A DNA stretch of 64,000 nt, taken from Fragilaria crotonensis. Lineage: Eukaryota; Bacillariophyta; Fragilariophyceae; Fragilariales; Fragilariaceae. A program made the translations under genes and the position numbers. The stretch's first letter is position 1; each line of letters begins with the position of its first letter. The notes beneath the pieces are model-generated. The model searched no databases and had not been told where the DNA came from. It saw only the letters and a program-made list of their open reading frames with translations. This document shows, in pieces, positions 28,449 to 64,000 of this stretch. The DNA lies in contig JAKSYS010000208.1 of assembly GCA_022925895.1 (NCBI GenBank), positions 25,093 through 89,092 on the forward strand, in the 5' to 3' direction.

Positions 28449-31041
28449 TCAAACACCAACATCCTCCTCTCCTCCTGCTGTATCTGCTTGCTGCTCAAGA
28501 GCTGCTGCCACCGTTGGAAATGGTGCTTGTGGCTCTGGTCGCATACAGGTTTCTAACAGCCTTGTAAGTAGCAAGTCCCTTGTCGTTGGAATCGCAGAGT
28601 CGTTGCTTGTCTTGTACCAAGCAACTAGGGTTCGCAACTGCGCAACATTCAACTGTGCATTTTCTTTGTTCGGTGCCCTGATGGCTTGTACTCTGTTGCG
28701 TAATGCATAAAAATCCCGAAGTTTCTTTTCCTCTCGCTCACTTTGCTGATCTTGTTGTTCTCGCCTCTTTGCTCGTAGGAGGGCCAATACTTTAGGTCCA
28801 ATGCTAAAGCTGCCCGAAGCAGACAGGAGTCCTGCTGTGACACGTTTCTTGCTGTTCATAATATCTTGAGCAGTTTGCATTCTCCTGCGTTGGTTCTCCT
28901 CCAGATTGGTGCCATTCCTAGCATCATCACGCTTCCTGGTTTCCACAATCGAATCGACCAGAGTGCCTGCCATACCATGATGTAAGTTCAAATCGCCGGG
29001 TCTGACAGCTATATCACCAGACAAAGCTCCTTCAGTTGATTCCAAGGTTTGTTGTGTGCTGTTGTTGTTGTCATCGTTGTCGTCCACGTCCTTTTGTTGC
29101 TGTCTAGACCGTGTTGACGTTGCCACAATTTCAGGGTGCAAAAGGCAGTTGTAATTCAGTGGCGACCATCCTCTCTCTGCAATTGCCTTTTGGTTTGATT
29201 TGATTCTTGCAAACGAATCATCCCATGCCCGGGCAACAAGGTCAACAACATCGTCCTTCTCAATCGCAAATGCAGCTCGCCTTTGTTCTTTCTTTTTCAA
29301 CAGGTTGCGCTTGTGTCTCGTTAATGCCATCTTGAAGCATCCATTCTGCTCCGTACTGTCGCCAACTTGCCAATAGCTGGTGCCGTATGGCACCCCAATA
29401 CATACATTCCACCTTGTTGCTGGATCATTGATGTATTCGAGAAAAGTTAAATCGAACCTGCTGCCATGCCCATCAAGCAACAGGAAAGGAGGCACGCCAT
29501 CACTTCTATTGAACACACCGAGCCCATCAATTGTGGCAAGCATGGCAACCAAGAGCTCAGCTGTTATACTTCCATTTTCAGAGCAGCAACAGAACGAAGG
29601 AACCGTCACACCATTGTACACACACGTTGGCCCCATTGGATATCGTTTCCCTCGTCCTGCGTTCTCTTCGAGATTATCATCATCTCCAATCCATTCTGCT
29701 GTCGGGTCAAGGCCGAGTACCCAACTTGCATCAAGCTCTTTGGCTGCAAATATAATAGCACACATCATCAATGGTATGCCAGTTGCAGCAGTAAACCCGA
29801 GAACGGTGAAGTGTGAGTCCTTTGTTGCCGCTCGTGTGTGTGGACGTTGTAATGCTTCGCATAAAAATCTCTCACCGCCCACGTTTCCATCTTTAGTCTG
29901 CGACGTATTCGAACCAACCTCATCAACAAATAGCAGCCTATCTGGGCGTACCACCTTGTACCTGGTAGCAAGACCAAGTCTATTGACATCGTTCTCCTCA
30001 ACCGTTTCTCCTTCCTTGGTCATGTACACTTTGTCGTCGAGCCTCACTGCGATTCCTCCTTCGACCATTTCCTTGTAGACCTCGCAATACATCATCAAGA
30101 AATTTGCGTAAGTACACCAGTCTGCTCGTTTGTAATCGAACTTCACCGATTTCTTACTCTTCACGATGTGTCCATTTCTTCTCATGAAGCCCCTCCAGTA
30201 GCCCTGACCCAGTTGTTTGTGAGCAGCTTTTTCATTTTCTGAGACTCCGGCATGCCGACAATGAATGTTGTGTTTCATCTTCCATGCCTGAATTTCAGAC
30301 TCAATCGATGTTCCAGCAATGAGTGAGTTGGCGAGTTGGAGCCCTGTTGTCACATTGACTGGTGATCGCATTCTTGACAGTTGTATGATAAGATCAACAA
30401 TGTATGGTTCAATGGCGATCATTGGTGAGGCAGTTCCTTGAGGGACAAGTGGGTTAGTCCGCAAACGTTTTGCCCTTATTCGCACCGTGGAGTGGCTGAT
30501 CTTGACGTCATCCGACAACCCATACTTTTTTCTTTCCAAGTGCAATGATTCTTGTGAGTTGTCCACGCGGTGCTCTCGTATTGTTTTTCTTCGCAATCTT
30601 TCTAACAATATCGTATTCCAAACCAGCCCACGCAACTGCAAGCCTCAACCGTTCTTTCAATTCTCTTGAACGTGCTTGGGTGCTGCCCTTTGGGGCGACC
30701 GAACGCTCCAGCAATAATAACATCATTCCTGTGGCTGGTGTCGTCATCGTTCACATGTTGTGTTGCGACCACGCCAGCCACTACATCTTCACAGGTATGT
30801 GTTCCTGCTGCGTTGATGGTATTTAAAGCAATCATTGCTGTTGATCTGCTGTCACTTACCGGTGCATTGTTCCCAATTGTTGCTGATGATTCCTCTCGTA
30901 TGCCCTCCATGTTGTCTTCATGGTCGTTGGTCAACGTTGAGATGGTTGATGCGTCTACATGGGGCGAATTTGATGCGTTAGCAGTCGTTGTGGTGTTCGA
31001 AGGATAAAGCAAGTCCAATTGAGCATCAGCTGCACCTCCTA
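28449..31041 (-). pseudogene. Pogo-like transposase, main part (DNA-binding and DDE domains)
   Basis: The longest open frame is 30641-28449. It has RLLFVDEVGSN, FLLLDGHGSRF and YWQVGDSTEQNGCFK, which fit the three acidic positions of DDE_1/pogo transposases (frame residues 240, 390 and 428). Upstream in other frames lies a helix-turn-helix-like stretch (GRPKGSTQARSRELKERLRL, IVRKIAKKNNTRAPRGQL) that joins KKYGLSDDVKISHSTVRIRA. Two frameshifts, near 30686 and at the A/T run near 30530, separate them. The Gln/Arg-rich C-terminus ends at 28449. With the N-terminal fragment at 42705-42933, the original protein was about 940 residues. Tc1/pogo transposases bind the terminal repeats and cut at TA. 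Confidence 0.75.
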
Positions 31042-31415
31042 CATCAGAAGGTGGCGGGTTTTACACCTAGTATTTCGTAGTACATTATTTTACAAAAGTA
31101 GGCAATTTTGTTACAAATTCTACACACCTATATGTCACTGTAATATTTAAGTGTAAATACACCCCCATTTCCAGTTGGTGTGCCATTTTTGGTACACCAC
31201 CTGGTACGGTAGCACAAATCCAGATGTGCGCTGTACATTTCTATGTTACGTGTGCACTGTTTCTTTTGCACTCATCAAGACATCCGAGTCCCTACCCTCA
31301 AGTACTCTTCACATTTCATGTCCCGTGGACCCGCGATATCTTAATTTCATCGATTTGACAGCTCCTCTTTTTCACCATCTCAGCTCATCATTCTAATTTT
31401 GTTGTCTAAACAATC

Positions 31416-34400
31416 ATGAGTCTCCAAGCAAAACTTTCACGTAAGATTGAGAATGCACGCAAGAGAAATGCAAAAAAGGTTCTAATGTCATCACCAGAGA
31501 AAGAGCAATGCCTCTCCTGTGGTCGATATGTTGTTGCTGGTTCAATGGGACTCTCCCGTCATTTCTCGAGTCATCCCCAGTGTTCTTTGGATTACTCAGG
31601 GGGATCCAAGTTTGTTGGACGGCACAATGACGAACAAAGCACAGCAGAGTGGCGATCACCTTCCCGTTTCCACCTGTCAAACTGGTGTTTCTTATGCTCC
31701 TCCGTCCTTGAAGTCAAATAACTACGCACGTCTACCCGTCGATGATGATGATTTTGGTACTTCCACTTTTTCGGATCTGGACGATGACCGGGAGCAATTA
31801 TTTACCGATGCTGTGGATGCCACGTTGAACAACGAGGAATCGGAACATCCTGACAGCAATGTTGCACCATTTTCCGACCATCCTGACCGCAATGTTGCAC
31901 CATTTTCCGACAATTCTGAGTCACCACTCACTCTCCCCAATACATTTGGTGACGCTTGGTCCAAGAGAGATGATGATGACGGTCTCAACCTCCAAACGTT
32001 TTCTTTGGAAGAGGAGGTCCAGGTGGACCTACTTCAGACGTTGAAGAGGTTGAGATGTCCGATGATTGCGTTTGATGAGGTGATGAAGTGGGCCGTCAGA
32101 TCATGCTCTCGAGGACATTCCTTTCGTGACATCCCCATCTGTTCTCGAAAGACCGTCATGGGCAAGTTGCAAAATCGTGTTGACTTTGAAGGTTTGACCC
32201 CCATGTTGAAGCAGCTTTATCTCCCATACTCAAACTGTCAGGTTGATATCGTTTATTTCAGTGCCCATGCTGTTTTTAATTCTTTCCTTTCGTGTGCTGA
32301 GCTGAACCGGGATGAGAACTATATATTCCACGACCCTGACAATCCGGATGTTAACCCTTTTGCGCGACCATGTGGTTCGGTTTTGGGTGACATAAACACA
32401 GGCAAGTCCTACCTGAAAACATATGACTTGCTGATAAAGAAAGCTGAAGATATGTTACTTCCATGTGTGCTTGCAATTGATAAGACGACCTGCGACATCG
32501 GAGGTGGTGGAAAGCTAAGCCTTGAACCCATCGTCGTATCGTATGGACTGATGGCGCACGACATCCGCAAAACCCCCGCAGCAATGAGAGTTTTGGGTTT
32601 CATCAATACAACTCCAGTCAAGGAACGTGCTTTCCAACCTGGAGAAGTCAGACCGAATACACCACTCCCCATTGTGGGTCCTCCCCATGTTTCGGAAGCC
32701 TGCTACCGACTGAATGAGTATCACATTCAAATTGACTTCATTTTGCGCGAGTCTGGGTATCTCGATCTCCAGGAATCTGGTTTGAAATGGAACCTCCATT
32801 ACCGTGGAAAGTCTTTCCCTGTTCACCTCCACCTTTATGTTCCATTCATAGTTGGAGATACGGTTGGCCATGATGCTCTTTGTGGTCATTACCAATCTCG
32901 GACCTCAACTGTTGCTCAGCTTTGTCGTTCGTGTGTATGTCCGACCGATAAATCCGGTTATTCAAAGGCCAGGGCATATGCAAACGCACTCCCATTCAGT
33001 TAACCAAATGGTCACCAACAGACAGTTTTTGAGTTGAAGTCCAATTCACAACAGTATCTCATCAATGCATTCGATTCGGTCAGGTTTGGTGCGCACAACA
33101 ATCGTGGGATTTTTGGTGCATGTCCAGGAGATCCTTCACTTGATCCTCCTGGGTTGGTTCAAGAATGTTCTTGATTCCTTCTTCAAGCAAATTGGAAAGG
33201 CATCCGAGTCCGGCAAGAGGTATGATAATCTGCTGTTGGACATCAACCGGCGCGTAGGTCGTCAAAGTGATCGACTTGTTCCCAGGACAACGGTCACAAA
33301 GGTTTTACATCGGGTGCCAACATCCCCGGACATGAGTACGCCGGTTGCATATTCATCATGCTCATCTCGTTGCATACTACTCATTTTCGGAAATCTTCAA
33401 GTCATCAAAGATGTCGAAGCGAAGGAAGCATCATTCATCGAAGTCGACGTTGTCAAAGCCCACATCTCACACGCCAGAAGTTGAAGTGGACATGAGCCTC
33501 AGCAACCCTGATTTTGTCGAGGACTGGAAAATGTTTCTGAGTTCCCTGCTCGAGTGGCATGCATGGCTTAAGCAAAGTCGCATCTCGCGTCTATCTGTCT
33601 CCCGATCTGGGCTTGCAGTGTCGTCCCTAATGCGATCGCTGAAGTTTGTTGCCCCCCGACTTTCTGGCACCATGGGAAATACAACAATCAAGACACATCT
33701 CGTCTTGCACATGGATGAAGACATGCTCAACTTTGGCGTTCCTGAGGTTATGAACAGTAGTTATGCGGAGTCTGCCCATATAACCATCTCAAAGGATACA
33801 ACACGCAATACCCAGAAGCGTCAAGGAACGTTCACACTCCAGGCTGCCATGCGTTACATCGAAAATCTTGCAATCCGGAAGTGCGCATCAAGTATAACTG
33901 ACATGTTGCAAATCCCTACAATGATGCTTGACACTCATCGGCTCCAGGGCAAGAGATTCTCTTTGGAAGAAGATGTTGACGGTGTCATCGTCTGTAAGCG
34001 TAATGCATCAAAGAAGAAGAAGGCTGACGATCCCTCTCCAGAGGACTATCACTTGACATCTCACGTATCAACATGTCTTGCAAAACATGTACTTCCCCAT
34101 ACGACTCCACGTATTCTTCATTGTCATACAGAGTACAAGTCGGCGGATGGTCAGATCTATCGTGCTCATCCATGTTACCATGGTAAACCCTGGTATGATT
34201 ACGCTCTCGTTAAATGGCATGGATACGATGATCTCTTCCCTGCACGCATTCATGCATTCCTCAATCTTTGCAACGTAACGAATGGCTCCAAGATAAGACT
34301 TCCGCATTCTGGCCAAGAGGTTTCTGTCCCGAACCCTGGTTTCTATGCTGTCATTGAATCATACAACGAGGTACTCCCCGATGGTGACGACAGTGAAGAC

Positions 34401-34940
34401 GATGGTGATGACGAGGAGCCCGGGGGAATTGGCGATGACGAGGAGGAAGCAGATGAAGAGGGAGACCGATCTATATTCCGGAAGTTTCAACTAGATTTGA
34501 TCCCCAACAGCCTCCAACCGATTCTCTATCTTGTCCACGTTGACTCGATAAAAAGACCGACTGTCGCAGTTGCCGACAATTTCAGTGATTGTGTCCACAA
34601 AAATGATGGTCAGACCATCCCGAATGCAATGTACATCTTCATGATGCTTCCCCAAACAGAATGGTCGAAAACATGGGACTTGTTCATTCACCGAAAGTAC
34701 AAGGAAATTGTCATAACAAAGAAGAAAGCAGAGTCTGACGAAAGTGGAGATGAAGGTTTCCACAGACCGGACAGAATCATCCCCCCATCCCCAGCTTCCC
34801 GCCGCAGTCGCCGTAAGGGTTCCAGGAGCGCTGTCCGAAAGCCCACCGTTGGAAAGCGAAGAAAGGCAGCCACCATTGGAGACGGAGAATCGGGATCTGC
34901 CAGACATCGAGGAAGCACAGATAAGCGACAACGTACATAG
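31416..34940 (+). CDS. C2H2-finger DDE transposase, Plavaka/CACTA-like, fragmented by frameshifts
   Basis: The ATG at 31416 opens with a basic stretch and a C2H2 finger (CLSCGRYVVAGSMGLSRHFSSH). The frame passes to 31519-33003 near 31640 and, after several shifts at 33000-33350, to 33345-34940. Candidate catalytic residues are Asp in LAIDKTTCD (codon 32479), Asp in FIVGDTVGHDALCG (codon 32858) and Glu in SSYAESAHITISKDT (codon 33778). CRSCVCPTDKSGYS is a conserved zinc-binding-like knot. The layout of finger, D, D-G-H, CxxC and sE..H..K resembles Plavaka-type and other CACTA-related transposases and recurs in diatom genomes as hypothetical proteins. The C-terminus has an acidic then a basic tail. 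It would cut at the 24-bp terminal repeats. Confidence 0.68.
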
Positions 34941-35001
34941 TACATCAGAACAAGTCTTGTTTGGAATGTAAAACATGTAGTCCTCTAACATATAAAATGT
35001 A

Positions 35002-38000
35002 CTACCTTCCATTCCTGCGTCGCACCCCATGTCTTGGCAGTATCCTGGCAAACGTGTCCCGGATACCGAAAGCATCTCTATTGCTGAAGGGAAGAATGCG
35101 CACCATGTTCAGTGCCAATGACTCGAGTAGGAATGCATCATCGCAGGCGAAGGCATACCGTGGAACGACTTCTGGCACCCTTGTTATGATCATCGATGCG
35201 AATGCAGACAGAAGATCACCAACCTGTGGAGAAGCCAGGCACGGAATTGCTGTTTTCACACAAAGACACATCCTGTCGAACACCATCGCAAACCTCAATC
35301 CGAATGTCATCATTTCCCATAAGGCATCGATCAGCGTTTCGGTTGCCAAAGCTGCATGTCTATCCCCGTTGAGTCCAAGAATACCGGGGGGCTTTCGCAA
35401 AGTCAAGATCTGATGCATGGCTTTGGACAGGTTCTGAAGAGATTTCCATTGGAATGTTGGACCTACTTCCTTCGCCGCTTCAAACCTACTGAGTTCATAC
35501 CAACGGAAACGCCGGTCGTACAATTCAGAGTTGAGGTCATAACAGAAGAAGGCGTCGTCCTCATCATACCTCGTCAGCGCCCCACTGGTTACTTCGCGAG
35601 ACCACTGGGTATGGTGTCCTTTTGCCTCCCGCATCATCACATCAGAATCGTCATCGCACTTCCGAAGCACGCGACGGGCAACATCGCTGTCAGTCACCTT
35701 GACCATGAAGTAGTACATGATACTTTGATGGTCAATTCCATGAGGGCGGGAAGGGAGCCATCACTTTCCTCTTGGCCAGCATGAGTTCGAGCACCCTCAG
35801 GCAGAAAGGGTTCAAATTTCCTTGCGAAGACTTCTCGTAGGCGTATTGATGGGAAGTAGATGCATTTCCCACCAAGGTAAGTTCCGGGAGTGAGGGATTC
35901 GATGGCAACCATCCGTGCATCCGCCTCACCATCACCGGAAACGCCAACCATGACATTCTGAGAGGTTGCTTTTTTGAACTCAGCCCAATCGTAGTCGTTG
36001 ACATAAATCCATGTGTCAAAGGCCGGTGGAGTCGAGAGGATGTGCGGATACCTTGTCTTGCACCTGACCATCTGAATGTAATACCATGCCACCTCATCAA
36101 CCCACTCAATGCCAGTTCTCAGCGTCGTGAACTCTGGCAACAACAGTTTCCAAAACTCCTCGAAATGGAATTGGAGATGGGGACATGGAACCAACACACG
36201 AGATGCGCGAATCAAATGGAAGGCAGTGACCTTTCGTGGGTGGAAGACATCAAAGAGAGAGCCAACCTCCCCATTTTTGACACGGAAGTACGGGTAGTAC
36301 ACACGGATGATAACCCGATTACCATCCATCCAACCTCCAAGGAATGGACAGAAGGGTTGCAACCTCTGTCGATTCGTAAGGCGCATCTGATTCGGATGAC
36401 GTGTTTCCCTTGCATCCACAGTCCCACGGAAGGAGCCACCTGAGCTGACAAAGCGTAGGGCATCTCGACAAGAAGTTTCACCACCGTCGATGCACAGTGA
36501 GTGGCATGCCACACAACTCCAACATTCCGTACCTGGAGCCATCAAGTCGGGTAGATGCTTGTCAAAAGCGGATGCAATCACATGCGACTTTAGCAACTTT
36601 GCAGAGGATGCATCGCCGGATTTGGATGGTGATCCCAATCGTGACGATGAATGAGTCTCCTCGTCATCATCAACATCCAGCACCTCGGGTAACGATCGTC
36701 GAGGAATCCTCCAAGCAGCAATATCAGGCTCGTCCCAAATTCCACTATCGGAGACCTGATCGCCCTCAACGGCATCAGAGACAGGCACGCCATCATCAAC
36801 AGTGACAGTGCTGTCATCGTCGTCGTAGTGTACGTCATCACCGAGATGCAGGTCACTCCCCAACGCAGCAATCCATGAGTCATCGTCCGACTCCGCGGAA
36901 GATACGGAGCCATCCAAGCCAACTTCGTCGCTGTCCACTATGACTTTTGATTCAGGCGACGGAACTATATCAACAATAGGTTCACCATCATCGCAGTTCA
37001 CGACAGTTCTTCGCGCGATTGCGTATGCACGGCGTTGTCGCTCCGCAGCGATGGCACGTCGAACGCCATAATGCACAATTGCAGCCTTTGCACCAAAAAA
37101 AGGTACCATAAACATGACAACCAGGCTTCCTGTCCATTATTGATGTGGCGTGCCTGATCAGCCGGCCATCCCATGATATAAGTGTACCATGAGTCAACTT
37201 AATCGCAACACCGTTGTAGGTGCGACCAGTTCTAGTTTTCTTACCAAATACATTAGGAAGCACGAGATACCAATTGTTCGTGGTACCCGGCGAATCTTCC
37301 GTCCAGATGGCAAATGATGACGAGGCGTCGTTGACGTCATAGTGTGATGCATTCGACAAGTCCACACTAACATCCATCGTGTGCGCCACGCGAGCAAATG
37401 TTCCATCACCGGCCATGCCCCCAGAAGGCTTGAGGTCCGCATCATCCTCCATGTCCTGCATCACTCGGAGGACAGCAGGAACAGACGTCGATGCAAGCTG
37501 CGCGGCTGCACGAACACAGGCTGCAAGAGCCGGTTGTTCGCGCGGTGATGATGATGTCACATATCGAGTTCTCCAGGGGCCAGTGCGATCTTTCATTATT
37601 CGGGTCCCAACCGGATGCATGGAACCGTGGTCACCGTGATTACCCCTGACGCCTCTCGACCCTCGACGTTCACGAACAGAAGTGGCGTGCTGGTGTATGT
37701 CTCGCAGCAGAGCAACAGCTCTTTCACCAAGTGCAGGAAGGTGTCTGACCTGAACCATGGAATCACGAAAAAGGGCAACCGAATCATTCCCCTTACTAGG
37801 GTGGCGAATGTGTGTTGATACGTTCAGATCAACGTCACCCTCCATCTCTGCATCTACGACCCAAACTGATTCTGGGTCAACGTTGCGGTGGAGGAAACCC
37901 GCAACATAATGACGACAACCCCTTCGCGCCGATGGCGACCGGACGTACTTCATCAGGTACAATCGTCGAAGCTCTTTGCGACTCATTGTGGAAGAGCAAT

Positions 38001-39114
38001 CCTCTCCATCAATAAAGTCAGGCGGCAAACGTGGCGAATCTTCGTCAGCACATTGTTGAACGTGATACACAGTCTTGTTTCGACATTTGTTGAAGCGGAA
38101 GACAGCGGAAGACAAAGATGCAAACTGACTGCAAGGTATGTTGAACGCAGGCGACCCACGGTTGACCTTCCACTTCCAGATGCAGTTGCCATCACCTTCC
38201 CAGAGATGGGTGATGTATCCATTCTTAGCAAACCTCTTCAGAGAAGTGCCATTCCGTAGTGTGCGAAGCCAGTTCATGTCCAGTGGAACGAGACTGTTCA
38301 AGACTCCCACGCAAGCTTTCCTGCGTTCGCGGTGGCAGTAGAACACACCAGCTTCGGGAAGGACTACCACCATTGCCCTGAAACGGGCATCATGACATGG
38401 ATCGAGGAGAGCATCGTCATCGACATGCATCTTGACAGGCTTGTCGACAGTGGCACGTGTGTTACACAGTGGCTTCGGGTGTGTTCGGGACCGTGCCAAC
38501 ACCGCGTCTAGAACAACAACCTCAAGAGCATGAGGGACGACCACAACTCCTGTCTTGTATTGGATGCTACGCATGTGTTCACACCGCTCCACAGTAACGT
38601 TATCAATTCCGAACGTATCAAGGAACGCGAAGTGAATACTCGCAACAAATGTTGTCTTGCAGATTTTGGCACCAATTGGGACACCACCCCCGACAGACAG
38701 AGAAGCAGTATCCGGTGCCTTCTGGTAATGAAGAAAGCGCTCGGTGAAAAAAGCGGATACGTGCCTCGGCAGGCCCTTGGACAAAACGGCGGCGCTTTGT
38801 CCGCCACTGGGGACGAAGACCTTGCGTTTGCCCTTGGTTTGGCCGTCAGCTTTGGTTAATGGCACACCAGGAAAGACACGGGGATTCTCGTACCCAGCAA
38901 TGATGTAACGGGAGAGCTCACCGGGGAAAGTGCGGCCACCCACAACATCAGACACAGCGCGAGAAACGCGACGTCGTGACGCACCACCACGACCACGTTC
39001 GTAACCTTTGGCCTTGCGCTTGCGGTCGCCCGCACTGTCTCGCTGCACGCTCTTCTTCCGATGTGGTGAAGAGCGTTTTCTTCGTTGTTTGTTATCCGAA
39101 GGAGATGGGGACAT
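35002..39114 (-). CDS. Transposon-borne ~1370-residue protein with candidate 2OG-Fe(II) dioxygenase core, two frameshifts
   Basis: The ATG at 39114 (MSPSPSDNKQRRKR) starts a basic, Arg-rich N-terminus. The frame passes at about 37098 into 37115-35694 and at about 35695 into 35718-35002. The first break lies at an A7 run (37095-37101) where six would keep the frame. The candidate core is NASHYDVNDASSSFAIW (H-x-D, His codon 37342-37344) and GTLISWDGRLIRHATS (distal His), then HVYGTFFGAKAA across the frameshift. H-x-D...H is the iron site of 2-oxoglutarate oxygenases, and TET/JBP-type enzymes of this fold travel with some eukaryotic transposons. Substrate and activity are unknown. A mid-protein CxxC..C..C cluster (CWSCVACHSLC) and a long C-terminal domain are unassigned. 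It ends 61 bp from the convergent transposase gene. Confidence 0.62.
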
Positions 39115-40584
39115 GATCCCTGGTGACAAAATGTCGTTCAGTGCAGGTAAACATAGTTACTGGATGGCAACGAATGTCTTCTGAGGCAAGCAGACAAATG
39201 TCAACACATCTCAACATGATAACGAATGTGATTCGTGGCCAATCTCTTCCCTTGTGGTACACATCAACGTCACTGGATGGCAACGAATCAAAAGCACCCA
39301 GACACTGGCGAGATAAGCAAACGAACCGCGTGACAAGCTTGTTGAAATGCCACTACTTTGGAATCGAGCGAGTGTAGAACCAAAGATTGTTACTGGATGG
39401 TAACAAATCAACAGCAACACTTACGCAGGACAAATTCAAAAGGAGGAATCCTCGTCAGTACCTATCACCTCGTATTCAATCTCCTGTTACTGGATGGCAA
39501 CAAGGGACAAAACAAAGCACTTGTTACTATGGCAACAATAGATACAACAAAACAAGTGTTACTGGATGGTAACGATTGCTTTGAAGATCGACGAGCTTGA
39601 GTGATGATGTGAGAGCATTCGCAAACTTTGCGGGAAACGTGCGAGAAAACATTCACGGTGGGAATCAGTACGTGACATACCAAAGAAAACAAGATATGTA
39701 CAAGACAGCGATGTGGGACTTCATTCCGACAATGGATAAACATGAAATTGATTTACTACAATGCTACATGCAAGGCAACAAACTTTACAGACAGCAATGA
39801 ATTTTTATATATGGAATACATAGGACGGAACTAGAAAGATTCTATACATTGGAGTACGAGTACAGAATATATCATTGAACCACTTATTCTGAAACAGAAA
39901 ATTGGGTGCATCATTTGCATGTTAATATACATGACACATTTACTACAAGGGATTTAATTGCATGACATCCAAAATTTAGAGATACACATACTTAACGAAT
40001 GCGACATCACAGGATACACTTTGTTAACAAATTGTATTAATTATATACATCATTTTATATGTAGCAGCCAGTACAACAGATGAAATTATCATGTAGTGGG
40101 ACTATTAGGACATAAAAATTCGATTTCCTACATGGTACATACTGACATCCTTACCACGTTTATCGTACATATGTAACAATATAAGCGTGCTTAACGAACA
40201 ATGCCAATAAAAGAAATTATTTACATGCATGCATATGCAGGGAGTAGTTTATCTTTCATGCGCAGCAATTCAAAACACGAACATCCGTAAAACACAACAG
40301 TACATGCTACGTACAGCACTGTAGAAAACAATTTAAAAACCATGTTGCAAACACGACATACTACAGTTACTGTGTGCAGGTTACAGAAAGTAGAATAGTA
40401 TACATTATAAATACAATATTACACAAACAGACAAGAGGTCTTGTGTAACATGACTACGTACACTATCATTCAAAACCAGATACGTGCGCGGGAAGGCTCA
40501 TACATCAAACTCAAAACTGCATCGGCCATAAGGAAAAAATCCCCAAACGACAAGTACTGTCACAAAATCATTAGGTAAGCAGCC
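39115..40584. other. Divergent intergenic region inside the inner element
   Basis: The first 460 bases hold the five palindromic 18-mers (annotated separately). The rest (39600-40584) is AT-rich without a convincing gene; a short ORF at 39597-39800 has no family features. It should contain the promoters of the dioxygenase-like gene and of the repeat-protein gene. Confidence 0.55.
39156..39575. repeat. Five dispersed copies of an 18-bp palindromic motif upstream of the dioxygenase-like gene
   Basis: GTTACTGGATGGCAACGA or a close variant occurs at 39156, 39269, 39389, 39486 and 39558, all in the same orientation. A shorter relative (GTTACTATGGCAACA) is at 39523. Spacing is 113, 120, 97 and 72 bp. 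Two copies read GTTAC-TGGATG-GTAAC, a perfect 5-bp inverted repeat. They start 42 bp upstream of the ATG at 39114, so they look like operator-type binding sites for an element-encoded protein or a host factor. Confidence 0.75.
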
Positions 40585-42326
40585 ATGGCGCACAAACGGA
40601 CGCAGAATGAAGAAAACGAGGACCCAGAAACAGAGTGTGTGGGTCAGATTGGTGGTGTGCAGAAGAAGAGACGCGCAGGAAACAACGTGAACACGAGAGC
40701 AACAAGAAGTAGTAGAGCTGCAGAACTCGAAACGCCATCGCATGAGGGAGACAGCAACGTAAGTGACGAAGACGATGATGATGATCCTGTTGTACTTCAA
40801 AGGAACAATGGAGGGCGTCCATCCAGAGGACCTCAATTGTTGACAACAGAACCTGTGGCCAGATTGGAAATATGAACGTTGCACCCCAAACGTTGTTGAC
40901 AATGGACGGCCTCCATCCAGAGACTTTCCATTTGTTGGCGGCGGACGTGGTAGCCAGGTTGGAAACGGGAATGTTGGAACTGGTGCCAACGTTGTCAACA
41001 ATGGAGGTTTCCATCCAGAGACTATCCACTTGTTGACAGCAGGCGTGGCAGCCAGGTTGGAAACGGCAATGTTGCTGGAACTGGTGCGAACGTTGTCAAC
41101 AATGGAGGGCTTCCATCCAGAGACTATCCACTTGTTGACAGCAGGCATGGCGGCAAGGTTGGAGACGGCAATGTTGCTGGAACTGGTGCGAACGTTGTCA
41201 ACAATGGAGGGCTTCCATCCAGAGACTATACCTAGTTGGCGTCAGGCGTGAAGGCCAACAAAGAGCTGACAACAGGAGCTCCTCAAATCCATTCCAAGGC
41301 AGGCAAGTTGACGGACAACAACGACTCGTTGGAGATGGGAATGGTCTCCATGGCTTGCAGGAATGGACAGCGCAAGAAGTGCAGGAAGGTGGAGGTATTG
41401 AACAGCATGGAGTGACGTTGTTGCCACAACAACAAGAGAGACGCGCCATGTCATACAGAACTGCCAAGGGATTGACAAAGAAAAACATCAGGGATCGCAT
41501 ACAAGTTACGGTGAAAACAGTTATCTTTCGGGGGGTCAAGTTCATAACATGTAAAGAATACTTCGATATGGTGATGCAGGTGATTCTTGATCAAGAGAAG
41601 CCCGCCGATACACCACAGTTTGTGAGGATGTACAAGACCATCGTCATGGGTGCCCTCAATACAAAACGGAGCACATGCGAACAGTCGGCACAAGAAGCAG
41701 CGATGAAACTGCTGAAGATCAAGAATCATGTGGATGAGGTGGATCCCCCACCATATTCGATGGACACTCTTTGCAAACTTCGCCAGTCGCAGACGGTGGA
41801 GGAAAAGGAGGCTTTCCTGTGGTTCGCAGGTGAACTACTAGAATGTGTGTGTGGAAAGAGGGGATGGGGTAACAGGAAGAAGTACAAGGCTACCATATCT
41901 GACGCAAAATCGAATGATACGGGCGCACCCGTAGTCACAGTTTCAGATGAGGCATTTGCGTTGCTGCTTTACGATGCCTACATTGACAAGTGGATCAAAA
42001 GGTATCACGAAGACAGAAGGGGGGACCCGAGGTCTAAACGAATTGTGGGAAAATACACACATACAGATGGTGGTACGTCAAACGAATATGGGGGCTGGAC
42101 TGAAGAGGGGATTCTCCAATTCAATGTATTGTGTGAGATGGTGCAAGAGGACAGAGCGAGTCGAAATGCAAGGGACGCAGAGGAGTGGCTGATGAACAGT
42201 TTGAGGCAACAGGCTGGAGGTGCTGGAGCACGAATGGGCCAAGAGAGGGAGACAGATCACACTGCTTTACAGCGGAGTTTGGAGAGGACGAATCAACCGG
42301 TAGTCAATGCCTTCATTGAGTTATAA
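40585..42326 (+). CDS. Third gene of the inner element: acidic/Gly-Asn repeat N-terminus and conserved C-terminal domain
   Basis: The ATG at 40585 (MAHKRTQNEENEDPETE) opens a charged N-terminus with a basic patch (QKKRRAG) and an acidic run. The reading then crosses ~100-bp tandem repeats that encode GNGNVAGTGANVVNNGG-like units in one frame. The C-terminal part is open from 41355 to 42326: RRAMSYRTAKGLTKKNIRDR, SDEAFALLLYDAYIDKWIK, then SNEYGGWTEEGILQFNVLCE and an Arg-rich helix. Repeat units of 94 and 101 bp break the frame, so at least two shifts are needed for one protein. I associate the YGGW.eEGI..fN.L motif with transposon-linked diatom proteins; no function is known. It may be an accessory DNA-binding protein. 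Confidence 0.55.
40804..41230 (+). repeat. Approximately 100-bp tandem repeat, about 4.5 copies, within the third gene
   Basis: Copies begin near 40804, 40898, 40997, 41098 and 41200 (AACAATGG followed by CCATCCAGAG in each). Unit lengths are 94, 99, 101 and 102 bp. The last two are nearly identical and the first is most diverged, as expected if the array grows at its 3' side. Confidence 0.85.
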
Positions 42327-42704
42327 ATAGCACTGGTTGGAAGAAGCACACGTTGAATGTATTGCGAACTGCACTAGTGGAGCACTGTACTATTGAACTA
42401 CTGTCATACTGTATACAGGAGGAACCGTAAATGGATGTTACACCCGACCAAAAAGGGGTTTTACAGCCACAGCTAGATGTTACGACATCAACAGCAAAGG
42501 TACAGAAACAATTGGATGCTGGGTGTAGCATAAGAGGGTACACAGCTGTACTGGACTCGAAAAAAATTATTAAAGATACAAGAGATATTACATAAACCTT
42601 TTCATATTACAGTGGAAAAAAATATTACGCACTGTACTGGACTTAAAAAAAACGGTACAGTGTACCAAATTTGTTACATGTAAAACCCGCCACCTTCTGA
42701 TGTA

Positions 42705-42933
42705 GTAGTTGTTTTTCTGTCTTATTAAGTTTCCATAGATGATACTTGACCATGTCCTTCGTTAGGAATGGCGCTGTTGGTTTCATTCGAGCAACAATTG
42801 TGCTGATGGCACCGTAAGGTAGTTTACCGTTATTATTTGCCTTATCTCGTTCTAACTCCATAACAATGTGATTGAGGATAATCAAATCAGGTCTGACTTC
42901 TTCGAAGTAATATACTTCTTCTTTGGTTGACAT
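42705..42933 (-). pseudogene. Pogo-like transposase, N-terminal fragment separated by the inner insertion
   Basis: The ATG at 42933 begins MSTKEEVYYFEEVRPDL, followed by LNHIVMELERDKANNNGKLP and TKDMVKYHLWKLNKTEKQLL. The frame then enters the terminal repeat of the inner element. With that element and one TA removed, it continues without a break into GGAADAQLDLLYPSN at 31039 and downward. The short domain (erD.a.NNGk.. and a W/K helix) is one I associate with diatom pogo-like transposases; its function is not established. Confidence 0.7.
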
Positions 42934-56031: not shown

Positions 56032-59000
56032 CTAGATTCGAGGGTTGATGACGAAGATAGATTCTTTGGGCAGACGTGTGACCCCTTTACTTGTGAACCT
56101 CTTGCATTGAGCCTTCTTGCGTTCTGTTGCCTCAGAGTCTCGTGTCTTGGCCCAATCAGTTGCATTGGAGACCGGCTTGCCAAATGAACTGCACTTCGCA
56201 GGTGGGATGCCAAGCTTTCCACAAATTGTATTGTAGTGGGATCCAAAAACGACTTCGTCCATTTCCTCTCGATCCGAGAGGGCAGCCGCGACTGCAATCA
56301 AACGGCCTAGCACATTTTGAGATTCCCACTCCTTGCTATCCATTCCCTTGGTATCAACAATAACGCCCATAGCTCCACTTTTGCGACTTAAGAGTGTTTG
56401 CCGGTAGATCTGCCAAGCATTATCGTCTTCCATGGACTCGATCGATACACCCGTTGATAGGAGAAAAGGACTTGTCACCGATCCATCATCGGGCGTTTTC
56501 TGGGTAAAATGCACCACCCCGCCAAGTAATTGATCAAAAGAAGATTCCCTGGTTACGATTCGACTCTTCTCCACCCCCATGCTTTGAAAGACACTCAAAA
56601 TAGTCTCCTCAAAAACATGGAAGGTCTTACGAACATCAATATCACCAAGAGGATAGGCCTCACGATAGCATGGTTCAGCCTGAACAGGGTCAACGCTGCC
56701 AAGATGGAGAAAGGGAGAAGTACTAAAGATCTGCAAAATCAAACCGCAAACGACGCTGACAGTCAACAAGGTCCCGCCATGGTTCACATCCATAGGAATA
56801 GGCCCACCGACGTCGCAAATGTAATTAGGGCAGTTCACCAAAGAGCCTGATTGTAGCCATCCGCCAGCGTTGCTCAGAAAGTTGATTTCAGGCATAAGTC
56901 TGACTCCTCGAAAAGCAGCATATTCCACAAGTTGCCTCAAAGCATCTTCGGTGTAATATCCCGTATACCGCTTCTGCTGCAGCGAAAGGTGGCCGTACTC
57001 CAACATCTGAATCGGAAAAGACTCGTTCTCAACTAGACGAACATGCAAAAGGTTGAATCCGAGCTTTGAAACAAAATCGATAATATGCCGCAACTCTTCA
57101 ATTGTGAAAAACTGGTGAGCCAGGTCAACCATGACACCCGTGTGGTTGGTGGCGAACTGATAAATGGGATCTTTTGCAATAGAAAATCTGCGGACTTCCT
57201 CCGTTTTGGCAATCTCTTTTCTGAGCTCCGTTGCTCTGGTATGGGCGATCTCAATGTCAGTGCTGCGGTGCACATGAGTCGCGGTATCCTTCCTCCGTAT
57301 CCGAAATGACATGGCAGGATATGTCATGCGTTCACAAATAGTTGCTGACCAGGCCTTTTGAAGAACACTGTGAGTTGGCTTCCAAAGATAGGTTGGCAAC
57401 TGCGGCCTGCCTTCGAGAACGCAAAAGTCATCGGCAAGGCCCATCTTGAGGCAAAGTGTTCGATAGTCTGCCAGGAATGCTTCTCTAGTTTTGGACATGT
57501 CCTTCCTCGACGCCATGGCAACCGCAATAAGTTTCCCCAATACATTGCGAACTTGGAATGAACATGGCCCCAATTCAAAGGTTGCTGCAATTACCGCCGT
57601 CGGATTAAGTGCATACCTCGCTGCTGCAATCGTTGCAATATCCCAAGCATCTTTGTCCTTCGACATGTCAAAATACAAGTTGGTCGACATGAAAAATGGT
57701 TGCTTCAAGTCCTCCTCCTTGATTGGCACATTATGCCACCAATGAGTAACTTCGCCAGCACGTTTTAGATGTTTTCCTTTGACACGAGCAATACTAGGAA
57801 AAGTGCTCAAATCGTCCTTTCCTGTCGTCTCCCAACGGACTACGTTTTTCGGGTTAACATTGAGCCGCCCCAGCATTTCTCTCAAGGCATCCTCAAACTT
57901 TTGAAAATTTGGCCAGATTTGCAGCTCCGTAAAACAAGGATCGCTCATGAATACCTCATCGCCTCCAAGGTGTAGGTAGGGTGATGTGTCAAAAATGTCC
58001 AAGATTTCCTTCAGCACATCTTCAATAACTTGCAGAACCATCGGCTGATCTATCCGCAACGGTATGGAGTATGATCTGTCGCATATGAAATTTGTACAGG
58101 GATAAAGCATTCCTGGAATGCCTGACCATGCACCGGCGTGACCTGGTATATTCAGTTCCGGCATAATTGACACACCGCGGTCCTTTGCAAAGCGAACCAA
58201 CTGCCGTAATTCCTGAGCGGTGTAGACCTCGCTAGTGCGATTGAAATGAGCTGAAGTTGCCAATTGAGGATGGCAATCAAGCTGTACCACAAAAGATTGG
58301 TCGTCAGTGAGTCGAAAGTGAATCAAATCGAAACCAAGGACGGCTATAAAGTCAATCAGTTCGTAGAGCCATGGTAAGGGAAAGAAATGGCGAGCGGCAT
58401 CAATTAAGATGCCTGTATGAGTGGTCCTGTTTCCTTCGCGCGCAACTTCAATTAACGGATGCTGAAGTTGAATCTTAGGGGGCGCCAACGCTTCGTCGTA
58501 GTCACATTGTACTGTATTCCAGTGCATGGCAAGCTGCTGTTTCAAACCATCTGGGTCGCTTCGGGTTGAGCGCACAAATTCTTCTCTCTCGTTAGGAAGA
58601 TTTGTTTTCGGAGTGATCTTCGCTAAGTCTTCCGGACTCAAGCCGTGAGCGCCTGCATGTTGTTCATGATTTATTCGGAAGGTTACATTGGATCCGAGGG
58701 GTTGTGATCCAGCGATTGCCACATTGCCTTCTTCTGGATACATAGGTTGCCATTTTTCTTTCATATTAGCGTCCACTTCTTTAGCAAGTTGTGTTGCTTC
58801 AACCACAAACGCTTCTCCTGCAACTTCCTCATTGCTTTGTTGCAAAGCTGTCGCTTGATTTCGTTCCCTTTCTTCCGATGCATTTACTTCTCCGTCCGTT
58901 TCGTCCTTTTGTGATGGATTTCGGAGCCTACCCAATTGCAGCAGAGGACTGGGCCGGCGTTGTCGAGAAGAACGTCGAGGTGAATTCATCTCGCAGTGCG

Positions 59001-59161
59001 CGTTGGGTGTGAAACCTGTCGATCGTGAGGCCACGAAAGGCAGCCAAAACTCTCAAATGAGACAGGGTCAAGATCAACACGGCTCCTGCTGCGACGCCGA
59101 GCACGAACCCGCGTTTCTTCGTTCCGCGTCGCTCCGGCGCAAAGAATGACGATGACGACAT
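56032..59161 (-). CDS. Membrane-anchored tandem GH20 beta-N-acetylhexosaminidase-like protein, second domain degenerate
   Basis: The ATG at 59161 (MSSSSFFAPERRG) gives a basic N-terminus and a signal anchor (KKRGFVLGVAAGAVLILTLS). The frame then shifts by +1 between about 58930 and 59034 into the 1000-codon frame ending at 56032 (its own start is only GTG). Two GH20 (TIM-barrel) domains follow. Domain 1 has THTGILIDAARHFFPL, FRLTDDQSF, MPELNIPGHAGAW and YLHLGGDEVF with the Asp-Glu catalytic pair (residues 359-360 of the long frame). Domain 2 repeats the pattern (HTGVMVDLAHQFF, LMPEINFLSNAGGW), but the pair is replaced by HLGSVDPV (777-783). GH20 enzymes remove terminal GlcNAc/GalNAc, for instance from chitin fragments or glycans. 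It is a predicted type II secretory-pathway protein. Confidence 0.82.
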
Positions 59162-61701: not shown

Positions 61702-64000
61702 ATGAGCATCTTTCGCACGCTCGGATCCTTGGATGTGACTGTTGAAGAATCTCGAACGGATCTAGACTCACACGCTGACCAGTGTGCAGTCGGTCATAAT
61801 TCTTTAATAGTACATGACTACGATCGCCCGATAAACGTTTCTGGCTATGACCCAGCGGGCCCTATTGCCAAAGACATGCGTACGGTGTCTGCAGCACTAG
61901 CGTACGATGACCCGCTCAGCGGTGCAACTGTTATACTACTGGTCCATCAGGCGATCTACATACCGGAATTGAGTCACAACCTACTGTCACCTATGCAAGT
62001 TCGTATTAATGACGTGATTATAAACGAGACGCCTCGTTTCCTCACTGAAAACCCCGACGAATTCACGCATTCCATACTCATTCCGGAACCCGACATGGAT
62101 CGCCCTTACGTAATTCCCCTCGGACTTCATGGAGTCACCTCTACATTCCCAACCCGCAAACCGACAACGGAGGAATACGAAACCCTTCCTCACTTGTGTC
62201 TCACAAGCGCCGACCCACCGTACGATCCGCACGACCCAGCATTCGCTTCACAAGAACATGCGATCACCGCATCTGTGTGGAATCCAGGGGACCGTATTGG
62301 GGCCGCTCCGTCTCGACGGCTCTGTTCAGCATCCCACACCCATGCTGTGGCGAAGGCAAAGGCAATTGTCGATGGGATTGATGCGGCAACGTTGTCGCTC
62401 AAACAAATCTCTGTCACACATGATGACGCACTGTTAGCGCAATCGTTGTCTGTATTACAGAAACACGGGACAGGTGTTGGGAAGCAATATACACCAGAGC
62501 AACTTGCCTCAAATTGGGGTATTGACCTGACGACTGCGCGTCGGACCATTGACGTCACTACGCAACGAGGCGTGAGGACGGTACTTCATCCGACATTGTC
62601 CAGGCGTTTCAGGACAAATGACCGTCAATTGCGATATCGCAGACTAGCGATTGACTGTTTCACTGATACCCTTATCTCCAACACTGTTTCCCGCCGCAAC
62701 AACAAGTATGCGCAAATTTTTGCAACGTCCGACGGGTGGTGCCGTGCTTACCCAATGTCTAAAAGTCGATGGCTCATGAGGGGTTATCGCTCCTTTTCCA
62801 AAGAGAGGGTGTCCCCAACACCATCATCATGGACGGCGCACGCGAACAGACGATGGGCCTATTCCGGAAAAAGTGCCGCGAAGTGAGCGTTCACGTGAAG
62901 CAAACTGAACCACACACTCCTGGTCAAACGCAGCGGAAGCCGCAATCAGAGAACTGAAGAAAGGCGTGGGTAGACAGATGGTTAGGTCAAGGGCTCCGAA
63001 GCGGCTGTGGGATGACTGCTTGGAGCGTGAGGCGTACGTCAGGTCGTTTACCGCGCACGAGATCTTCAGATTGAGTGGGCAGGTGCCCGAAACAATTGTG
63101 AGTGGAGAAACAGCCGACATTTCACCTCTTGCCCAATTCAAATGGTATGAGTGGGTAATGTTTCGCGATACGTCCGTTACCTACCCTGACGATGCCTTGG
63201 TGCTCGGACGCGACCTGGGACCGGCCATTGACATCGGTCCGGCGATGACAAGGAAAATCCTCAAGGCGAACGGCCAAGTGGTATACAGATCGACAGTTAG
63301 GTCGTTGACGCCTGATGAGATGGCCGATACAACTGCAAAGGCAGCTCGCGACAAGTTCACCGAGTCCGTGAACGCAGCGTTGGGAGAGGCCTTCAAATAC
63401 GAAGACTTCGTTAACGATCCAGAACTCGAGGCGTTTGACACCCCTATATATGACGAGTACGACGACGATGTTGACGGGAAGGGCCCTGAGGTGCCCGACG
63501 AACTTGAGGATGACGTTGACACCTACGATCAATATGTGGGGGCCGAAGTAGCGTTACCGATTGGTGGCAACATGATGAATGCCAAGGTCAGGGGACGAAA
63601 GCGCTCTGCAGATGGCAGCGTCCGCGGTCGTGCGAATACGAACCCAATACTCGACACTCGTACATACGAGGTTGAATTTTCTGACGGTCAAACTGCTGAA
63701 GTGACGGCGAATGTCATTGCGCAGAATATGTACGCAATGTGCGACGAAGAGGAAATCAATTCCTTCTGCTGGCTGGCATTGTTGACCATCGGAAAGACGA
63801 GAGCGCGATCTCACGGGCCGACATGTATATTCGAAAAGGGTCAAACACACACATCCGGAAATCGACTCGAGGATGGCGTTTATGTGTTGAATGGAAGGAT
63901 GGTACTACCTCATGGGAGAGGCTAGCCGACTTGAAGGAGTCAAACCCAGTGGAGGTGGCCGACTATGCCATATCTAGAGGTATCGACCAAGAGCCTGCAT
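61702..64000 (+). CDS. Copia element 2 pol (protease, integrase region), 3' partial and frameshifted
   Basis: The frame 61702-62886 starts close after gag. It has TDLDSHADQCAVG, the active-site region of the retroviral-type aspartic protease, then LSHNLLSPMQVR (protease end) and, after a spacer, the pre-integrase HPTLSRRFRTNDRQLRYRRL and LAIDCFTDTL, where the integrase core begins. Breaks near 62770 and 62950 lead into 62966-63925. That frame holds the integrase C-terminal part (KRLWDDCLEREAYVRSFTAH, QFKWYEWVMFRD) and an acidic linker with RGRANTNPILDTRTYEVEFS. Reverse transcriptase should follow outside the window. Confidence 0.72.

Follow-up and report, generated by a model that had tools for sequence, protein, structure and literature searches.

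Transposons that carry their own TET/JBP-fold dioxygenase gene are already known from fungi. In the available text of PMC12730594 (Kojima 2025), TET+ PlavakaB elements of Agaricus bisporus and Gymnopus confluens combine Plavaka transposase motifs, CATCA..TGATG ends, and 2- to 3-bp target duplications with such a gene. TET+ transposons of the Kyakuja, Dileera, and Zisupton (KDZ) group likewise pair a transposase with a TET/JBP gene, and the PHISTA Harbinger elements of Puccinia encode a transposase, a TET/JBP protein, and an unexplained third protein (PMC12730594). The word “diatom” is absent from that paper. Here, we analyzed a window of 64,000 nucleotides from the freshwater diatom Fragilaria crotonensis (GenBank assembly GCA_022925895.1, contig JAKSYS010000208.1, positions 25,093 to 89,092 of the forward strand), which contains a mobile element at positions 31042 to 42702. 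We consider it probable that this element is a diatom Plavaka transposon with a fixed three-gene layout, comprising a transposase, a predicted TET/JBP-type DNA-base dioxygenase that would likely relieve silencing, and a third protein predicted to be helical (gene 3). A search of the open-access literature on Plavaka, TET/JBP dioxygenases, diatoms, and stramenopiles found no description of this element; what appears to be new is the diatom Plavaka version with a third gene.

The closest relatives in architecture, the TET+ PlavakaB elements, differ from the diatom element in their fungal hosts and in their dioxygenases, since the PE-type TETs listed for Plavaka have an HxE motif, whereas the diatom enzymes have HxD in 74 of 75 cases; moreover, the available account of fungal Plavaka names no third gene (PMC12730594). 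KDZ elements have a transposase of another superfamily and make 7- to 8-bp duplications (PMC12730594). The PHISTA transposase is also different from the diatom Plavaka transposase; what the two elements share is the presence of a third protein.

The window element consists of 24-bp perfect inverted ends around three genes, as the initial annotation had proposed, and is flanked by a 2-bp TA target-site duplication. The ends are 94% identical over 33 nucleotides (31033 to 31065 and 42679 to 42711), with a perfect core formed by a left terminal repeat starting with CATCA (31042 to 31065, forward strand) and a right terminal repeat ending with TGATG (42679 to 42702, reverse strand). The TA copies lie at 31040 to 31041 and 42703 to 42704, as read from the sequence and from a comparison of paired ends. 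Searching the F. crotonensis assembly (62.1 Mb, 881 contigs) with the 24-mer at up to three mismatches gave 65 matches, against 0 for a reversed control; 46 of them start with CATCA, 13 with CATCG, and 6 otherwise. The 65 matches include 22 inward-facing pairs. When flanks were compared for 20 pairs (leaving out those on contigs C152 and C195), identical 2-bp flanks (TA, TT, AG, AA, CG, TG, or GA) were found at 18, the exceptions being C122 and C285. Thus, the window element and these 18 pairs have the ends of PlavakaB together with exact 2-bp duplications. One site is common to C183, C265, and C466 and apparently another to C111 and C209, so that 15 of 17 distinct sites are duplicated, versus 1 in 16 expected by chance. 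Because the near-identical copies on C183, C265, and C466 occupy one site other than that in the window, the unit has occupied more than one place. The identical 20-bp flanks of these three copies may reflect haplotypes, a duplicated region, or redundant assembly.

The three genes travel together in much of the genome. Placing search matches by hand inside the 22 end pairs, with part of the candidates scored, we found the complete trio, in one and the same order, in 11 copies. Five copies (C254, C371, C414, C571, and C832) have the transposase and gene 3 and no dioxygenase match, and six (C111, C152, C195, C209, C669, and the second pair on C383) have no match to any of the genes. The initial annotation had named copies without an association between the genes as evidence against its proposal; such copies are seen only in part, since half of the end-bounded copies show the complete trio and five more keep two of the genes. 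Two of the six copies without any match (C111:38045-39971 and C209:25079-27003), with about 1.9 kb between their ends, are short nonautonomous derivatives. Independently of the ends, matches were merged into 102 transposase, 117 dioxygenase, and 112 gene 3 clusters, and partners were sought downstream of the transposase, within 8 kb on the other strand for the dioxygenase and within 14 kb on the same strand for gene 3. Each search scored part of its candidates, and the linkage counts are therefore lower bounds. For at least 54 of the 102 transposase clusters, the dioxygenase and gene 3 are both present, and the arrangement is constant. A single orientation is seen in 62 of 65 dioxygenase neighbors and 70 of 72 gene 3 neighbors, where about 3.5 and 5.5, respectively, would be expected nearby by chance. 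For some dioxygenase clusters (e.g., at C183:62707 and on C490 and C754), neither partner was detected in range; other transposons may carry the gene, as in fungi.

Pairwise distances between elements are strongly correlated among the three genes, indicating that they have largely diverged together. The coefficients are 0.86 for transposase and dioxygenase (13 elements, 55 pairs), 0.85 for transposase and gene 3 (14 elements, 91 pairs), and 0.95 for dioxygenase and gene 3 (9 elements, 36 pairs), and none was reached in 5,000 permutations. When one of four near-identical copies was kept, leaving fewer elements, the respective values were 0.88 (28 pairs; 12 of 5,000 permutations), 0.80 (55 pairs; 0 of 5,000), and 0.93 (15 pairs; 5 of 5,000). 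The layout is kept across elements that share only a third to half of their residues with the window element. This differs from rust fungi, in which TET genes have been swapped between transposon superfamilies (PMC12730594, available text). A possible exception, judging from sequence identity, is an element at C153:116704-128429 (L030 and L057), whose transposase and gene 3 are about 82 to 87% like those of the window while its dioxygenase pieces are 58 to 74% like the window gene; an exchange between elements may have occurred there.

The transposase is encoded on the forward strand in two open reading frames (ORFs), of which the first (31519 to 33003) contains the catalytic Asp residues and the C(2)C motif and the second (33345 to 34940) contains H(3)H and the Glu. 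Membership in Plavaka (CMCT clade) is well supported by sequence comparison, namely, by PF18759 in relatives, motif order, termini, and 2-bp target duplications, and is in line with the earlier proposal of a zinc-finger DDE transposase of the Plavaka or KDZ kind. PF18759 was detected in 60 of 107 transposase homologues. It scores above the cutoff of 26.3 bits in two of four F. crotonensis transposases scanned (L071, 32.0 bits; P0202, 29.9 bits) and is present in all three homologues scanned from other sources (P0166, 31.6 bits; P0270, 45.2 bits; P0271, 44.7 bits). In alignment A3, in which the catalytic Asp residues were picked by eye, the order D191, D330, C352/C355, H597/H601, E621 is kept; in fungal Plavaka and PlavakaB, D, D, C(2)C, H(3-4)H, and E follow one another in this way, along with CATCA..TGATG ends and 2- to 3-bp duplications (available text of PMC12730594). 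The transposase would move the element by DDE cut-and-paste. Near its N terminus, in a frame counted on the DNA from an ATG at 31416, lies a zinc-finger-like CxxC...H...HxxxC segment (31509 to 31583, forward strand). It is in another frame than the following ORF, and several of the relatives aligned in A3 start with a similar segment.

The dioxygenase gene (35002 to 39114, reverse strand) was delimited by ORFs, genome searches, and an AlphaFold2 model. The predicted structure contains a double-stranded beta-helix closest to those of TET/JBP enzymes. All five top Foldseek matches are CMD1 of Chlamydomonas (PDB 7cy4-7cy8), and the 15 top VIA-align alignments are all with TET2, CcTET, CMD1, or NgTET1, well above FTO and ALKBH proteins (Z of 16.8 to 13.7 for TET2, NgTET1, and CcTET); FTO and ALKBH3 are the next matches. 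The initial annotation had suspected a TET/JBP-type dioxygenase, to be abandoned if the model lacked the beta-helix; instead, the model shows this fold with TET/JBP structures ranked first. A census of up to 75 aligned dioxygenases (numbered as in copy L010) revealed that the iron-binding triad is conserved, with H591 in 75/75, D593 in 74/75, and the distal H655 in 71/71. Counted on the DNA, the HxD motif lies at 37336 to 37344 and the distal His at 37150 to 37152 (both reverse strand). The family departs in this from the HxE motif of PE-type TETs. With CMD1, the diatom enzymes share the HxD-xx-D spacing, a Trp 13 positions downstream of the first iron His (H+13), and a Thr at position +2 from the distal His (PMC7854593). 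However, identity to CMD1 is 12 to 14% over about 435 columns, and the available text of PMC7854593 does not present CMD1, unlike the diatom gene, as belonging to a transposon. TET2, NgTET1, and CcTET resemble the diatom enzyme in having the top VIA-align Z values and the iron triad and, for TET2 and NgTET1, in the Asp/Asn at the base-reading position; they appear to differ in the co-substrate pocket, where the diatom enzymes, judged by spacing and sequence, have Trp for Val or Leu and lack a conserved Arg to hold the C5-carboxylate.

The likely target and co-substrate can be judged from the residues near the iron. At the fifth position beyond the first iron His (H+5), D596 is present in 73 of 75 sequences. 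According to available descriptions, an Asp or Asn at this position of CMD1 (first His H345, base-reading D350), NgTET1, and TET2 bonds to cytosine N4 and would clash with N6-methyladenine (6mA), and CcTET, which accepts 6mA, has Gly there. The numbers of the first His in TET2 and NgTET1 used for this comparison are our assumption. Because D596 matches the residue with which CMD1 and NgTET1 read cytosine N4, we infer action on 5-methylcytosine (5mC). The dioxygenase likely oxidizes methylated cytosines on the element’s DNA, and this oxidation would lift silencing by the host or prepare the DNA to transpose. A rather unlikely alternative is that the enzyme has another target, such as thymine, 6mA, RNA, or a protein, and that its function is in gene regulation or transposition instead of antisilencing. 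In its favor, the substrates of TET/JBP relatives include thymine (JBP), 6mA (CcTET), and possibly RNA, and FTO and ALKBH3 follow in the structural ranking; D596 argues against it. Another possible, if doubtful, view is that the enzyme is CMD1-like, using ascorbate instead of 2-oxoglutarate (2OG) and adding a glyceryl-type group to 5mC as a protective or antisilencing mark. CMD1 uses vitamin C, and its Trp358 at H+13 takes up the space that the 2OG-binding Arg1896 has in TET2 (PMC7854593, available text); the diatom W604 at H+13 is Trp in 70 of 73 sequences and Phe in the other 3, an equivalence based on spacing and not on structural superposition. In the available descriptions, this position is Leu339 in CcTET and Val in TET2 (the TET2-like CcTET mutant has Val). 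Furthermore, no Arg is conserved by sequence between H655 and K676, where TETs bind 2OG (R662, 45/71), CMD1 is the top Foldseek match, and Ser583 (75/75) aligns with CMD1 Thr337, whose Ala mutant is dead (PMC7854593, available text). In contrast, VIA-align ranks TET2 slightly above CMD1 (16.8 versus 15.0), position 602 is Ser or Thr in 70 of 73 sequences versus Ile356 in CMD1, and CMD1 Phe416 and Arg418 have no clear counterparts. In the earlier label of 2OG-Fe(II) dioxygenase, the use of 2OG is less certain because the pocket, judged by spacing, resembles that of CMD1.

Besides the lack, by sequence, of a conserved 2OG-binding Arg, several findings weigh against a Plavaka transposon with an anti-silencing TET/JBP enzyme. 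(i) The mean predicted local distance difference test score (pLDDT) of the dioxygenase model is 70.5 (moderate confidence), the Foldseek TM-scores of the CMD1 matches are low (0.16 to 0.23), and none of TET2, NgTET1, and CcTET appears in the best 50 Foldseek matches listed; consequently, the case for the fold rests on the ranking, VIA-align, and the motifs. Pfam scans of 37 dioxygenase members gave no relevant family, a PF12851 (Tet_JBP) search of the genome at an E value of 1 gave nothing, and profile searches of PDB sequences gave no TET/JBP match. The fungal PE-type TETs were likewise recognized by structure, with an HHpred E value of 1.4 (PMC12730594, available text). (ii) PF18759 is below the cutoff in L059 (22.5 bits) and the window ORF (18.2 bits) and was not matched in L062. 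(iii) As assembled, the window copy is broken between the two transposase ORFs and, in the dioxygenase, near 37,100 and 35,700. Compared with the near-identical copy L051, the transposase region has 14 gap openings and 6 mismatches in 3.46 kb; since indels outnumber substitutions, the breaks look more like long-read indel errors than decay. The 35,700 break is also present in L010, which is 99% identical to the window dioxygenase and open for 1,137 codons. (iv) An empty site for the window insertion was looked for and none was found. (v) Linkage is incomplete: 15 of the 102 transposase clusters lack the dioxygenase only, 8 lack gene 3 only, and 25 lack both; neither partner lies in range for 40 of the 117 dioxygenase clusters and 28 of the 112 gene 3 clusters; and shortened copies are real (C571 has 3.0 kb between its ends). 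Some missing partners reflect limited sensitivity, because the searches score only part of their candidates; on C30 and C8, a dioxygenase was missed at first, and reading the DNA showed a diverged copy in place. The broken window copy and the five copies with the other two genes and no dioxygenase match would fit a passive cargo of dioxygenase and gene 3 that is of no help to the element. We regard this as very unlikely, because gene order is fixed, even relatives with as little as 28% identity keep the catalytic residues almost unchanged, and the diverged copies L013, L016, L069, and L071 retain long open frames; the longest open frames elsewhere are 1,494 (C122) and 1,291 (C829) codons for the dioxygenase and 1,187 to 1,188 codons (C134 and C1) for the transposase. 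The short derivatives with the same ends could also suggest that host genes were captured by chance between two short inverted-repeat elements, which is hardly credible given the architecture repeated in 11 copies.

Gene 3, which the initial annotation had listed as a third conserved protein, has 101 homologues and is kept with the element. Its conserved, predicted helical domain lies at 41448 to 42326 (forward strand), as judged from the ORF, genome searches, and a model; the start may lie upstream, near 40,585. The predicted structure is all-helical and confident (pLDDT of 87.7), a Pfam scan gave no fitting family, and a fold search with the model gave no convincing match. Tight linkage to its partners suggests that gene 3 serves the element; that it does so by binding DNA or in regulation is a guess. 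Tandem units of about 102 bp (40908 to 41209) are found near the gene 3 start, where the window frame is interrupted. In the interval that separates the dioxygenase gene from gene 3, immediately upstream of the former, there are five copies of the dyad-symmetric repeat GTTACTGGATGGYAAC (39156 to 39573, forward strand), compared with 0.05 expected. The site occurs at 11 of 112 loci examined, representing 9 elements, and diverged elements on C285, C609, C263, and C624 have 16 to 19 copies each. In sequence, the array looks like a putative iterated binding site in a region common to two divergent genes. Gene 3 or the transposase zinc finger might bind such repeated dyad sites. It is even conceivable, although unlikely, that a Plavaka-borne, CMD1-like, vitamin C-dependent enzyme writes 5-glyceryl-methylcytosine (5gmC) or a similar base on the element and that gene 3 and the dyad sites steer it to the element’s own promoter. 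Should the dioxygenase prove to be CMD1-like, 5gmC would have a candidate source outside Chlamydomonas; the available text of PMC12458080 states that reports from other species are lacking.

C5-cytosine methyltransferase matches are found on 9 contigs of the host assembly, although contamination could account for some of these. Several families of methyltransferases are described from diatoms (PMC9998398, available text), and cytosine methylation in the diatom Phaeodactylum is described as confined to transposable elements; together, these features make an arms race directly testable. With a TET transposon in a stramenopile, its layout kept across such diverged elements, it would seem that eukaryotic DNA transposons of more than one kingdom have long relied on bringing along an enzyme that erases silencing marks. 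In F. crotonensis, 48 mobilome genes, not tied to this element, are all higher at pH 9.2 (available text of PMC9732472).

Elsewhere in the window, adjacent open frames at 61702 to 63925 (forward strand) have no Pfam match and resemble a Copia-type retrotransposon polyprotein. Directly left of the element, a 730-amino-acid open frame (28449 to 30641, reverse strand) has no Pfam match and 67 genome match pieces, with 61 of 85 candidates scored; it looks like another repeated, possibly transposase, gene. The gene at 56032 to 59034 (reverse strand) encodes a 1,000-amino-acid protein in which two stretches match glycosyl hydrolase family 20.

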